Assembly (NCBI GenBank): GCA_934569045.1
Contig: CAKTJX010000044.1
Span: 1 to 12,581, forward strand
Direction of reading: 5' to 3'
DNA from: an uncultured Oscillospiraceae bacterium
Lineage (GTDB): Bacteria > Bacillota > Clostridia > Oscillospirales > Oscillospiraceae
DNA: 12,581 bases
How positions within the stretch are numbered: position 1 is the first letter of the stretch; each line of letters opens with the position of its first letter. Positions 4,719 through 12,581 of this stretch are shown piece after piece. The translations under genes and the position numbers were made by a program. The notes under the pieces are model-generated. The model saw only the letters and a program-made list of their open reading frames with translations. It ran no database searches and was not told the origin of the DNA.

Positions 4719-5381
4719 ATGGGACTTTTCTCGAAACGCATCGACCGGCAGCTGGAGGCCTATCAGCAGGAGCTGGTGGAGACCCACTACCGAGAGGTAG
4801 ACAATATGTACCGCCAGATGCGGGGCTGGCGGCACGACTATCGGAACCACATCCAGACCATGAAAGCCTACGCCGCCGCGGAAAACTGGGAGGCCATCCG
4901 CAATTATCTCGACCTGCTGGACGAGGACCTGACCACCGTGGACACCGTGATCAAAACCGGCAACGCCATGACGGACGCGATTCTGAACTCCAAAATCTCC
5001 CTGGCGAAATCCAAGGGAATCCAGGTCATTGCCGATGCCCACATTCCGGTGAAGCTCCGCTCCTCGGAAATTGACCTGTGCTGCATTCTAGGCAATCTCT
5101 TTGACAACGCCATTGAAGCCAGCCTTCCCCTGCCGGCGGAAAAGCGGCTGATCCGGGTGTATATGGACATGAAAAACACCCAGCTCTATATCTCCTTCAC
5201 CAATTTCACCGCCGGGAAAAAGCTTGTAAAAATCGGCAGCCGCTTCCGCTCCACCAAGGGGCAGGGCCACGGCTTTGGTCTGGCACGGATGGATGCCATT
5301 GTCGCCCGGCAGGATGGCTACATCAGCCGCAACAGCGAGGACGGCGCATTTACCACGGAAATTCTGCTGCCCCAGGTGTAA
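4719..5381 (+). CDS. Soluble GHKL-type sensor histidine kinase
   Basis: The 220-residue kinase probably phosphorylates the LytTR regulator encoded just upstream. A likely phospho-acceptor is His39 in MRGWRHDYRNHIQ, the arrangement of AgrC/VirS-like (HPK10) kinases, followed by a dimerisation helix pair. The ATP-binding domain shows an N-box with Asn126 and Asn130 (ILGNLFDNAIEAS) and a G-box GHGFGL at 183-188. Unlike AgrC, which has about 200 residues of membrane sensor before this core, the protein begins about 38 residues before the histidine and has no hydrophobic segment, so it should be cytoplasmic. The start ATG follows GAGG at 4707-4710 and the stop of the regulator by 5 bases. No upstream extension is possible because the regulator's stop is there. 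The signal it senses is unknown. Confidence 0.88.
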   Translation: MGLFSKRIDRQLEAYQQELVETHYREVDNMYRQMRGWRHDYRNHIQTMKAYAAAENWEAIRNYLDLLDEDLTTVDTVIKTGNAMTDAILNSKISLAKSKGIQVIADAHIPVKLRSSEIDLCCILGNLFDNAIEASLPLPAEKRLIRVYMDMKNTQLYISFTNFTAGKKLVKIGSRFRSTKGQGHGFGLARMDAIVARQDGYISRNSEDGAFTTEILLPQV

Positions 5382-5478: not shown

Positions 5479-7281
5479 ATGAAAACAAACAGACAGCCCC
5501 GGCCCTATTCCACGCTGCAAAACACGCTTTGGGAACTTTCCCTGGGCTGGCGCACCCGGAAACGTGGAATAGTCCTCTACGCCCTGTCCGCCCTGGCGGA
5601 GATTCTGAACAATCTGGCAGGCCTCTGCATTGCCCCAATCGTTCTGGGACTGGTGGAACAGCACGCGGCGCTGCCAGCCCTGATCGGAACCATTCTGCTA
5701 TTTACAATGGCGCTGCTGCTGGCCCAGGGCGGAAAGGCCTATTGCAGCGAATACGCCTCCTACTGCGTCATTGAAATTCGGGATGCCTTGATCCTGATGA
5801 TCAACCGCAAAAGCGGGGAAACCGCCTATCCCAACCTTATGAACCCGGCGTTTCAGCGCCTCAAGGACAAGGCCCGGGAGGCGACGAACAGCAACCGGGC
5901 GGCAACCGAAGAAATTTTCCGCACTTTGGCCGCCCTGCTTACCAACGTTGGCGGTTTACTCGTCTACCTTACCGTTCTCTCCGGCCTGAATCCCTGGCTG
6001 CTGGCGCTGATGGCCGCCACCTGTCTTGGTGAATTCGCCGCCTCCCGTTATAAAGGCAACTGGATGTACGCCCACCGGGACGATGACAATATTTACTACC
6101 ACAAGAAGCGATACCTTCGTGACAAAGCCGAGTCCATCGAGTTTGCCAAGGATATCCGCATTTTCGGGCTGCAAAACTGGATTTTCGACCTGTTCGACAA
6201 CATCCACGATGCCTACCTTGCCTTCCAGCTGAAGGTGGAAAGGAAGCGGCTGCTGGTCGATCTGGTGGGAGCCATTCTCACCGTGGCCCGAAACGGCATC
6301 GCCTATTGGTATTTGATCCGGCTGACTCTGGCGGATGGGCTGTCGGTCTCTCAGTTCGTCCTCTATTTTACCGCCGCCACCACCTTCACCACCTGGGTTT
6401 TGGGCGTTCTCGGCAGCGTCAGCACGCTGAATAAGCAAAGCCTGGATATCTGCCAGGTGCGGGAATTCCTGGATTTCCCCGAGCCCTTCCGATGTGAGGG
6501 CGGAGATCCCATTCCCCAGGCGGACTGGTATGAGCTGCGGCTGGACCATGTATCCTACCGCTATTCCGAAGCCGAAACAGACACCATTCTCGATCTGTCT
6601 TTGACGATTCACCCCGGCGAACGGCTGGCCATCGTCGGTCTGAACGGCGCCGGAAAGACCACCCTGGTCAAGCTCCTGTGTGGGCTGCTGGACCCTGCGG
6701 AAGGAACCGTTTTGCTGAACGGAACGGATATTCGGGTCTTTGACCGGAAGAAATACTACGCTCTCTTCAGCGCCGTCTTCCAGGACTATGCCCTGCTGAG
6801 CACCACGGTTGCCGACAATGTGGCCCAGTCCGCAGAGGAAATCGATGAGAAAAAGGTCTGGGACTGCCTGGAAAAGGCCGGTTTGACGTCTGCCATTCAG
6901 GCCCTGCCCGAGGGAATCCGCACCCATGTAGGACACGAAATATACCTGGACGGCGTTCTCTTCTCCGGCGGCCAGACCCAGCGGCTTATGCTGGCACGGG
7001 CACTCTATAAGGACGGCCCCATCCTTCTGCTGGACGAACCCACCGCCGCCCTGGACCCCATTGCGGAGGCGGAAATCTACGAAAAATTCAACGAGATTTC
7101 CGGAGACAAAACCGCCATCTATATCAGCCACCGGCTGTCCAGCTGCAAATTCTGTGACGAAATTCTGGTGTTTCAAAACGGCAGCATCGTCCAGCAGGGG
7201 CTCCATGCCGTGCTGCTTTCCCAGAAGGACGGCCTCTACGCCCAGCTCTGGAAGGCCCAGGCGCTGTACTATGTGCAATAG
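5479..7281 (+). CDS. ABC exporter, fused permease and ATPase
   Basis: This 600-residue protein is a half-transporter of the ABCB/peptide- or lipid-exporter type and should work as a dimer in the membrane. The N-terminal part (about 1-340) is hydrophobic with six likely membrane helices, for example ALIGTILLFTMALLLAQGG and VGGLLVYLTVLSGLNPWLL. The C-terminal ATPase shows Walker A GLNGAGKT (387-394, Lys393), Q-loop FQDYALLSTTVADN, signature FSGGQ (495-499, a common variant of LSGGQ), Walker B ILLLDEP with Glu520, and switch His551. There is no peptidase C39 domain. I chose the ATG at 5479 because of GAGGTG at 5466-5471; the frame is open further upstream, but those starts lie in the kinase gene or the hairpin. 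Substrate unknown; no bacteriocin precursor is visible beside it. Confidence 0.9.
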   Translation: MKTNRQPRPYSTLQNTLWELSLGWRTRKRGIVLYALSALAEILNNLAGLCIAPIVLGLVEQHAALPALIGTILLFTMALLLAQGGKAYCSEYASYCVIEIRDALILMINRKSGETAYPNLMNPAFQRLKDKAREATNSNRAATEEIFRTLAALLTNVGGLLVYLTVLSGLNPWLLALMAATCLGEFAASRYKGNWMYAHRDDDNIYYHKKRYLRDKAESIEFAKDIRIFGLQNWIFDLFDNIHDAYLAFQLKVERKRLLVDLVGAILTVARNGIAYWYLIRLTLADGLSVSQFVLYFTAATTFTTWVLGVLGSVSTLNKQSLDICQVREFLDFPEPFRCEGGDPIPQADWYELRLDHVSYRYSEAETDTILDLSLTIHPGERLAIVGLNGAGKTTLVKLLCGLLDPAEGTVLLNGTDIRVFDRKKYYALFSAVFQDYALLSTTVADNVAQSAEEIDEKKVWDCLEKAGLTSAIQALPEGIRTHVGHEIYLDGVLFSGGQTQRLMLARALYKDGPILLLDEPTAALDPIAEAEIYEKFNEISGDKTAIYISHRLSSCKFCDEILVFQNGSIVQQGLHAVLLSQKDGLYAQLWKAQALYYVQ

Positions 7282-7297
7282 GCTCTGTCTATTGCGT

Positions 7298-7431
7298 ATC
7301 TGCCGCAATCCGTGGCAGATCCAGTGAAATCCAGCCCGCGGCTGGGTGAAATCTGTCTTGTGACAGGTGAAATCCAATCACGGATTGGATGAAATCACCC
7401 GTTCCGGGTGGTTGTGGAGTCCCTGCGGGAC
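7298..7431 (+). repeat. Tandem hairpin array with (G/A)TGAAAT linkers
   Basis: Six short inverted repeats follow the exporter stop. H1: arms 7298-7306 and 7312-7320, with one G.T pair. H2: CCAGCC 7331-7336 with 7340-7345. H3: CTGTC 7353-7357 with 7362-7366. H4: CCAATC 7374-7379 with 7383-7388. H5: CACCCG 7396-7401 with 7405-7410. H6: GTCCC 7419-7423 with 7427-7431. The 7-base linker GTGAAAT occurs at 7324, 7346 and 7367, and ATGAAAT at 7389, a period of 22, 21 and 22 bases. The last linker (7411-7418) is degenerate. Loops are 3-5 bases. Stem sequences differ between units but each is fully paired. It lies before a terminator, so it is probably transcribed as the 3' untranslated region of the exporter mRNA. 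The family is not named here; it could be a structured RNA or a repeat of mobile origin. Confidence 0.8.
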
Positions 7432-7450
7432 GAATAAAAATAAGGAGAGC

Positions 7451-7491
7451 GGCCTGCTGCAAAATCAAAATTTGCGGCAGGTCCTTTTCTT
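7451..7491 (+). terminator. Intrinsic terminator of the exporter transcript
   Basis: The stem CCTGCTGCAAA (7453-7463) pairs with 7471-7481 through 11 bp including one G.T pair, with two further pairs possible outside it (7451/7483 and 7452/7482). The loop has 7 bases and is followed by TCCTTTTCTT. This is a good rho-independent terminator for the exporter gene and its hairpin array, and it insulates the promoter that follows. Confidence 0.85.
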
Positions 7492-7509
7492 AAGAAAACT
7501 TTAGGACAA
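7490..7509 (+). promoter_or_regulatory. Candidate autoregulatory repeat upstream of the OmpR-type regulator
   Basis: Two 9-base motifs, TTAAGAAAA at 7490 and TTAGGACAA at 7501, share 7 of 9 bases and start exactly 11 bases apart, the spacing at which PhoB/OmpR-family regulators bind tandem sites. The first copy overlaps the palindrome TTTTCTTAAGAAAA (7485-7498) and the T tract of the terminator; the second overlaps the -35 box. I infer an operator; no binding data exist here. Confidence 0.4.
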
Positions 7510-7532
7510 AATCGGGCGATTCATGCTATAAT
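7503..7532 (+). promoter_or_regulatory. Promoter for the OmpR-type regulator and kinase genes
   Basis: The -10 box is a perfect TATAAT at 7527-7532 with an extended TG at 7524-7525. A weaker -35 box, AGGACA at 7503-7508, lies 18 bases upstream. Transcription should begin near 7539, leaving a very short leader before AGGAGGT at 7544-7550. Confidence 0.8.
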
Positions 7533-7557
7533 GGGTTCAAAATAGGAGGTGTATGCT

Positions 7558-8208
7558 ATGCAGGAACCGATTCTTCTTGTGGAGGACGATTTGCCCCTCT
7601 CCCAGGGGCTTTTGGAGCTGCTGGAGAAAAACGGCTACGCGCCCACTGCCGCCATGGACCTTGCCGCCGCACGGGATGCCCTGGGGCGGCAGAGCTTCGA
7701 TCTGCTGATTCTGGACGTGACCCTGCCGGATGGGGACGGGGTCCGGTTCTGCCGGGAGCTGCGGGAGCGGAGCTGCGGCACCCCCATTCTGTTTCTCACC
7801 GCCCGTGACGAAGAGTTTGACATTGTGCGGGGGCTGGATGCCGGGGGCAATGACTATGTAACCAAGCCCTTCCGGGTTCAGGAGCTGCTCAGCCGAATCC
7901 GGGTGCTGCTGCGCAAGGACCCGGGCTGCCTGACCCGGGGCACCCTGGAAATCGACCAGCAGCGGATGCTGATCTCCCGGAATGGAACGGCCCTGCCGCT
8001 GACCCTGACGGAATACCGGATTCTATTGTGCCTGGTCCGCCAGCGGGGCGTGACCACCCGGGACGTTCTGCTGGGCGCTCTCTGGGACAATGACGGGAAA
8101 TTTGTAGATGACAATACCCTGTCCGTCCACATCAGCCGCCTGCGGGAGAAAATCGGCAGCGGGCACATTCAGACCGTCCGAGGGGTGGGCTACAAATGGG
8201 TGGACTGA
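7558..8208 (+). CDS. OmpR/PhoB-family response regulator
   Basis: This 216-residue DNA-binding regulator has a receiver domain (about 1-115) and a winged-helix effector domain (about 125-216). The receiver shows Glu9-Asp10-Asp11, phospho-acceptor Asp53 in LLILDVTLPDGDG, Thr81 in LFLTARD and Lys103 in DYVTKPF. The effector domain ends with the winged-helix phrase LSVHISRLREKIG and TVRGVGYKW, typical of Trans_reg_C. The start at 7558 is preferred over GTG at 7549, because AGGAGGT (7544-7550) would overlap that GTG, while it sits 7-8 bases before the ATG. The kinase gene overlaps its 3' end by 13 bases. It probably activates the transporter promoter at about 9066-9110, where 11-bp phased repeats suit this family. 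Subfamily (BceR-like, VanR-like) is not settled by sequence alone. Confidence 0.93.
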   Translation: MQEPILLVEDDLPLSQGLLELLEKNGYAPTAAMDLAAARDALGRQSFDLLILDVTLPDGDGVRFCRELRERSCGTPILFLTARDEEFDIVRGLDAGGNDYVTKPFRVQELLSRIRVLLRKDPGCLTRGTLEIDQQRMLISRNGTALPLTLTEYRILLCLVRQRGVTTRDVLLGALWDNDGKFVDDNTLSVHISRLREKIGSGHIQTVRGVGYKWVD

Positions 8209-12509: not shown

Positions 12510-12581
12510 GGCGGAGAAGGAGGGATTTGAACCCTCGATACCCTTTTGGGGTATACACGATTTCCAATCGTGCGCGCTCGG
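12509..12581 (-). tRNA. tRNA-Ser (anticodon GGA), 5' part beyond the right edge
   Basis: Read on the minus strand, the visible parts are the anticodon arm (stem CACGA/TCGTG, loop TTGGAAA, anticodon GGA at the complement of 12563-12565), a long type II variable arm with a 6-bp ATACCC/GGGTAT stem, a T arm (GAGGG, TTCAAAT, CCCTC), the 3' acceptor strand CTTCTCC, discriminator G and an encoded CCA. The long variable arm and G discriminator fit serine. The 5' acceptor strand and most of the D arm are missing because the window ends. Confidence 0.93.

Follow-up and report, generated by a model that had tools for sequence, protein, structure and literature searches.

The Gut-1 RNA was given in a table by Weinberg et al. 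in 2010 as 'Human gut only', and the accessible text of that paper treats it as a noncoding RNA (PMC2864571). The S23 proteins of family PF05635 are called of unknown function or uncharacterized in the accessible parts of two papers (PMC4990558; PMC11270868, the latter from 2024); a proposal exists that the IVS of the 23S rRNA is mobile, with its ORF as a component. The REP/BIME repeats with RAYT, as the accessible portion of PMC3733652 characterizes them, are composed of a short tag and a hairpin and occur between genes in many copies, often as inverted pairs and mostly behind genes. CRISPR arrays are built of constant short words at regular spacing. According to the accessible text of PMC3936711, 23S_rRNA_IVP genes have been recorded in cas loci.

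The array of small hairpins described here lies in the window, i.e., the whole stretch of 12,581 bases that was analysed. Its segment 7322..7400 (+) matches the whole covariance model of Rfam Gut-1 (RF01706, model positions 1-77 of 77) at 62.1 bits against a cut-off of 50, so that the sequence-only reading, which had found no named family for it, is to be corrected on this point. Compared with the Gut-1 of the accessible 2010 text, the family as seen here is one of several linker types, is present in the Clostridia of many animal guts and in Akkermansia, and is tied to S23. With the 23S rRNA IVS the arrays share the protein family PF05635 and a structured RNA beside an ORF, but in the loci compared they precede S23 genes that lie among other genes, in Clostridia often after tRNA genes, or stand without any gene; the window array itself is outside any 23S rRNA gene, the Rfam scan of the window having returned Gut-1 and one tRNA and nothing else. 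That tRNA match (12512-12581, minus strand, 29.8 bits) is truncated by the window end, and ARAGORN called no gene there. The features named above for REP/BIME are all shared by the arrays, which differ in their tags, in runs of usually three or four linkers, and in the partner, S23 and not the Y1 transposase. Constant short words and regular spacing are likewise shared with CRISPR, but the inserts of the arrays are self-paired hairpins, the words have about 5-7 bases, and cas families were absent from a Pfam scan of nine window ORFs.

The array follows an ABC exporter gene (Pfam ABC_tran on the ORF), whose stop codon TAG is at 7279..7281 (+), with 42 nt between this codon and the first linker; it is thus located in the exporter's sense 3' UTR, as the earlier reading had it, and this location is common to many single-sided copies. 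It opens with hairpin 0 (7298..7320, ATCTGCC ... GGCAGAT), in the position of the first hairpin of the single-sided arrays of genome G340, and proceeds on the same plus strand through linker 1 (GTGAAAT, 7324..7330), hairpin 1 (CCAGCC-CGC-GGCTGG, 7331..7345), linker 2 (GTGAAAT, 7346..7352), hairpin 2 (CTGTC-TTGT-GACAG, 7353..7366), linker 3 (GTGAAAT, 7367..7373), hairpin 3 (CCAATC-ACG-GATTGG, 7374..7388), linker 4 (ATGAAAT, 7389..7395), hairpin 4 (CACCCG-TTC-CGGGTG, 7396..7410), whose position is shared with the G340 copies, and hairpin 5 (GTCCC-TGC-GGGAC, 7419..7431), with a very similar GTCCC..GGGAC hairpin standing behind several of the G340 copies. An intrinsic-terminator-like hairpin with the tail CTTTTCTTAA comes behind it at 7451..7483 (+), one such hairpin being found against 0.5 expected by shuffle. 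At 7503-7532 (+), behind this hairpin and upstream of a response-regulator gene, there is a promoter-like site whose second hexamer is preceded by TG.

The head-to-tail row of hairpins over 7298-7431 and the linkers (G/A)TGAAAT at 7324, 7346, 7367 and 7389, with a period of 21-22 bases, had both been recognized from the letters, and both are borne out by the sequence and, for the linkers, by shuffles. The linker spacing is 22, 21 and 22 bases; the word [GA]TGAAAT occurs on the plus strand of the window at the four array linkers only, and its reverse ATTTCA[CT] once, at 5203; and when the whole window was dinucleotide-shuffled 400 times, the chain of linkers with paired inserts, four long in the window, never exceeded one linker (1 in 304 shuffles, 0 in 96). 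The segment 7282-7500 folds at -101.3 kcal/mol against -63.1 (sd 4.8) in shuffles (z -8.0, none of 200 as low). The claim of a conserved unpaired linker stands in so far as the linker is the conserved part, but in the minimum-energy fold its outer letters extend the stems, which leaves an unpaired core of fewer than 7 bases.

For membership in Gut-1 a covariance-model score of at least 50 bits, the curated cut-off of Rfam, was applied, and the window array has the build of the family, i.e., three hairpins with covarying stems, set between UGAAAU linkers. Recurrence in related genomes, the check proposed with the first description of the pattern, was found in a sample of 150 genomes from the family that lies closest to the exporter of the window: Gut-1 matched at E <= 0.001 in 30 of them, 21 above the curated cut-off, with at least 29 copies in G340, 27 in G282 and 23 in G291, the scoring having covered no more than 29 candidates per genome. 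Such copy numbers agree with the suggestion of a remnant or end of a mobile repeat. Among 14 control genomes one (E. coli) matched, below the cut-off. The three-linker DNA pattern was present in at least 120 stretches of named bacterial genomes, a part of them with hairpins, and the true hairpin arrays among the pattern stretches listed were nearly all of Clostridia, mostly from animal gut, with three of Akkermansiaceae (L116, L119, L194). In 30 genomes reached via such loci the pattern matches in 30/30 by construction, as often as 68 times in one genome, whereas its reversed form matches in 0/30. Viral carriage was considered and set aside: the three-linker pattern does occur in 114 stretches of viral contigs, but many of them are direct repeats without hairpins.

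The single-sided copies of G340 have a first hairpin, CA or CG, four linkers and a GC-rich fourth hairpin, several with an added GTCCC..GGGAC hairpin, which is the anatomy of the window array. In an alignment of 15 G340 arrays with the window, 96.9% of the cells are paired versus 87.1% when shuffled (0 of 500 as high), 11 of the 21 pairs are changed on both sides, and sliding the partners leaves at most 54% paired, so that the earlier statement of pairing retained despite sequence drift is confirmed; the count of further pair types was no better than in shuffles of this alignment. This alignment leaves out the paired arrays, L342 (a G340 array that carries an insert) and the second of the arrays in L323, and L334-L336, which gave no array cluster, are outside the G340 comparison. 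Across the Gut-1 copies TGAAAT is constant while the stems covary. A further repeat, starting about CGTAGGGGCGA, is seen behind several arrays in L323-L342 (G340) and L459-L471 (G027).

Apart from the single-sided arrays there are paired elements, in which a GTGAAAT half is joined to an inverted ATTTCAC half about 30 nt away or across a longer middle, and which may fold as separate hairpins or by pairing of linkers with complementary linkers, the energy model favouring neither. Positions relative to genes were counted over all collected loci, with duplicates dropped, as well as any array lying 150 bases or less from the end of its locus. Among 116 single-sided arrays, the stop codon of a same-strand ORF lies within 120 nt on the 5' side in 45, many at 14-40 nt, against 9 with the mirror arrangement (an opposite-strand stop 3' of the array); 10 have an opposite start on the 5' side, 9 a same-strand start on the 3' side, and 22 are inside a mechanically called ORF. 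For the 82 paired arrays the same four classes number 7, 2, 8 and 3, with 3 inside an ORF. The sense 3'-UTR bias of 45 versus 9 gives p = 7e-7, a value that is too strong because it treats copies of the same genome as independent and because overlapping loci may contribute a few of the arrays. At 42 nt from its stop codon, the window array is placed like the single-sided copies, and several copies of G019 likewise show a terminator-like hairpin after the array.

The S23 family was met first at an Akkermansiaceae locus (L366), where the small gene between two arrays is a PF05635 match (G005:C11:48695-48991). Dense paired GTGAAAT arrays surround Y1 transposase and S23 genes there (L366/L408, G005), with the linker of the Clostridia in another phylum. 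Of the array-positive genomes, 14 of 16 had a PF05635 match, and of the Gut-1-negative ones none of 8. Over the 150 genomes, both were present in 18, Gut-1 only in 12, S23 only in 19 and neither in 101 (p = 3e-6), the two draws of 150 being taken as identical on the agreement of the listed genome handles. The search for PF05635 was negative in those 12 of the 30 Gut-1 genomes, as well as in the array-rich G017 and G273; incomplete assemblies may be the cause for some of these. From the 19 S23-bearing genomes without Gut-1, 13 are represented on the S23 tree described below, none in its GTGAAAT group. Among the matches listed, Gut-1 stands 34-299 bases 5' of a same-strand S23 in ten cases (G227, G281, G283, G291, G334, G340, G351, G355 and two in G363), where the S23 match of G355 is a fragment below the cut-off and the matches of G334 and G363 are arrays of related linkers, GTGATAT or AGTTATAT. 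A GTGAAAT-type cluster lies within 1.5 kb of 9 of 30 PF05635 matches, hairpin runs with other linkers occur in 8 further PF05635 loci, some of them away from the gene, and an S23-like ORF is present in 11 of 120 array-pattern loci. In the window, PF05635 was absent from the nine ORFs scanned, both neighbours of the array included, and its array is a solo copy at most, because no S23 gene adjoins it.

Many S23 genes have paired arrays as their 5' leader. In the leaders compiled, i.e., those where the S23 ORF was recognised on the plus strand, the common order is a terminator hairpin, a T-run, linker-hairpin units, a complementary core, units of hairpin and complementary linker, about 20-55 nt and the start codon, with such different linkers as gtgaaat (L404, L405), gtgatat (L413), gtgatgt (L411, L431), tgatg/catcat (L389, L390), gtgaag (L401), atgaagc (L410) and gctaaat (L387). 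A 6-mer (with its complement) is repeated at least 6 times within 320 nt upstream of 37 of 64 distinct S23 genes versus 4 of 183 control ORFs, the set comprising the distinct S23 genes with enough upstream sequence, a gene in two overlapping loci being counted once; the genes of five PF05635 loci (L394, L403, L408, L426, L431) stand under the array loci L359, L286, L366, L307 and L312. By source, the repeat was present in 12/17 genes from array-picked loci, 17/25 from genomes mostly array-picked, 7/21 from the family survey and 1/1 for the remaining one, and the family-survey genes taken against the controls (7/21 vs 4/183) still give p = 1e-5.

The linker type follows the clade of the adjacent S23 protein. 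On a tree of these 64 S23 proteins (121 columns; 23 of 61 inner branches unresolved) the linker types need 13 changes, where the least possible is 8 and the shuffled mean 29.5 (0 of 200 as low), with 'none' counted as a type in 32 of the 64 rows. Confined to one group each are GTGATAT (4 rows, 100/94), SCGATAT (2 rows, 98/96) and ATGATGC (4 rows, 87/88); GTGAAAT has 15 of its 16 rows in one group of 19 rows (96/88), the other being of Akkermansiaceae; and GTGATGT (3 rows) needs two changes, with 15 of 500 shuffles as low. The window linker GTGAAAT is thus of a type used by an S23 clade. Several linker types occur with different S23 groups inside single genomes (G004, G013, G022, G027, G029), and the host therefore does not explain the linker type. 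At the genome level the corresponding prediction came out in part: arrays of GTGATAT are present in 3 of 4 genomes with an S23 of the GTGATAT group and also in 5 of 32 others (p = 0.03). These arrays without a GTGATAT-group S23 on the tree were observed in G004, G008, G237, G282 and G364; G004 and G282 have S23 genes outside the tree, and in G237 no S23 match was obtained. The earlier idea that a protein or RNA reads the linker fits this tracking of clade by word.

In Clostridia the S23 genes and arrays are often placed directly behind a tRNA or tmRNA gene, which is present in 23 of 54 S23 loci (L385-L438) versus 0 of 50 control loci (p = 2e-8); the nearest one is on the S23 strand in 23/23 and upstream of the S23 reading frame in 22/23, and in the other locus (L410) it is upstream of the S23 match. 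The S23 loci of Verrucomicrobiota (L496-L525) have a tRNA or tmRNA in 1/30. There, a 6-mer is repeated at least 5 times in the 320 nt on at least one side of 17 of 29 S23 genes, for which the comparison is the one-sided Clostridia control (16/183). Head-to-tail words free of hairpins are inverted across the S23 gene in L504, L507, L515, L516, L518 and L521, with words of 7-10 bases on both flanks (e.g., L507, L515, L516, L518), and hairpin arrays beside S23 genes occur in L520 and L523.

The copies suggest that the arrays have been dispersed. With the S23 locus of G013 used as a DNA query, its leader recurs at many sites of this genome and in three genomes of its genus, and 7 of the 8 long matches (>115 bases) that reach the end of the leader stop at query positions 1335-1337, about 50 nt before the S23 ORF, the remaining one extending to 1364. 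The G013 copies on contigs C64, C160 and C167 are gene-less, because PF05635 matches only on C115 and C171. In G027 most compiled copies have a sharp shared 5' edge with unrelated surroundings. No pair of occupied and empty sites was obtained; for the window no close relative appeared, either by its exporter (best identity 58%) or in a DNA search of 394 genomes, and the two flanks of the one G340 copy examined lie on different contigs in the relatives of the genus.

We consider it rather probable that the window feature is a dispersed, gene-less, single-sided array of an S23 element, filed as Gut-1, whose linkers would be read by an S23 protein; the array, its covariation and copy number, the place before S23 genes, the solo copies of G013, the match of linker to clade and the 3'-UTR bias belong to the sequences, and from these we infer the binding, its RNA or DNA level and the movement. 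Against this reading speak the 12 Gut-1 genomes without an S23 match, the half of the S23 genes on the tree that lack an assigned linker, the partial outcome of the GTGATAT prediction and the absence of S23 from the nine window ORFs scanned. The protein of these elements is a four-helix bundle of the S23 family. The gene-bearing form in Clostridia consists, in order, of often a tRNA or tmRNA gene, a terminator, linker-hairpin units, a short complementary core, mirrored units, about 20-55 nt and the S23 gene. Each S23 clade would read its own short word, an S23 oligomer presumably binding the unpaired linker words, with the hairpins as spacers which may keep several words at a fixed distance. 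The protein has a solved relative (PDB 2rld, E = 6e-22, five chains). To our knowledge, no catalytic domain is present in S23. In the accessible part of PMC4990558 the S23 protein of Xanthomonas is a ring of five four-helix bundles, and a ring of five-fold symmetry would suit the holding of several words at once. Recognition would most likely be of RNA, which is favoured over DNA because of the sense 3'-UTR bias and of the pairing kept with free stem sequence. The arrays would spread as passengers, through recognition in trans by the S23 protein; copies that come to lie after a stop codon would be tolerated and may shield or sequester the 3' end of the mRNA; in the window, S23 would likely bind at the 3' end of the exporter mRNA, with stability as one possible result.

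The strand of the copies bears also on a DNA-level alternative, which we regard as unlikely, namely that the S23-linked arrays act as inverted binding words, extruded or single-stranded in replication, and are the ends of a small DNA transposon, with the RNA form incidental. The complementary linkers in the two inverted halves of the paired elements speak for it, as do the hairpin-free word runs that are inverted across the S23 genes of Verrucomicrobiota in the manner of terminal inverted repeats and the location of several copies directly behind terminator T-runs, but a strand-blind DNA end would not be expected to produce the sense-strand bias of 45 to 9 among the single-sided copies, the type of the window. 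A REP-type repeat moved as single-stranded DNA, tag and hairpin together, by a Y1 tyrosine transposase (RAYT) is highly improbable in our opinion: the tag-plus-hairpin design, the high copy number, the inverted pairs and the position behind genes are as in the REPs of the accessible PMC3733652 text, and arrays lie around a Y1 transposase gene in the Akkermansiaceae locus L366, yet PF01797 occurs in 9 of the 16 array-positive genomes and in 2 of the 8 that are Gut-1-negative, was not found in the three pattern-richest ones (G029, G013, G004), has arrays near only 1 of 22 Y1 loci, and the tag is (G/A)TGAAAT, not GTAG or CGTC. The Y1 transposase was rejected as the mover, since PF01797 does not track the arrays.

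Two further explanations manage without S23. An ordinary host 3'-UTR element, i.e., a structured end and terminator that stabilise the exporter mRNA with no special protein, would account for the 42 nt from stop codon to first linker with a terminator-like hairpin after the array, for the many single-sided copies right after stop codons and for the terminator-like hairpins behind several G019 arrays; we hold it improbable, as it leaves the invariant linker, the clade-matched linker types and the leaders of S23 genes unexplained. For a stand-alone small RNA gene, as which Gut-1 is filed in Rfam (type 'Gene; sRNA'), the chance appears very slight, given that the sole promoter-like site in 7150-7650, that at 7503-7532, is downstream of the array and that many copies lie 14-40 nt after stop codons in sense or in the leaders of S23 genes.

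With the S23-linked array as the preferred reading, the array family itself is known, and what is new is the tie of Gut-1 with S23, the clade-matched set of linkers and the 3'-UTR habit; no paper that connects S23 or PF05635 with either Gut-1 or hairpin arrays was found in the texts accessible to the search, whose coverage left out preprints and most subscription papers. On a wider view, held tentatively and at somewhat less than even chances, the S23 proteins would be sequence-specific readers of short words, each clade repeating its own around its gene, spaced by hairpins in the gut Clostridia and in Akkermansia but free of them in a number of Verrucomicrobiota. Proteins and words together would constitute widespread minimal mobile elements, of which the 23S rRNA IVS would be one branch and Gut-1 the gene-less colonists of 3' UTRs. 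The Gut-1 RNA has been without a function since 2010, and a word matched to the clade would give Gut-1 and S23 a partner each, which can be tested jointly. It could furthermore extend the range of mobile elements by one that requires no more than a small helical protein and an array of words, and could explain many of the intergenic hairpins in the genomes of gut bacteria.
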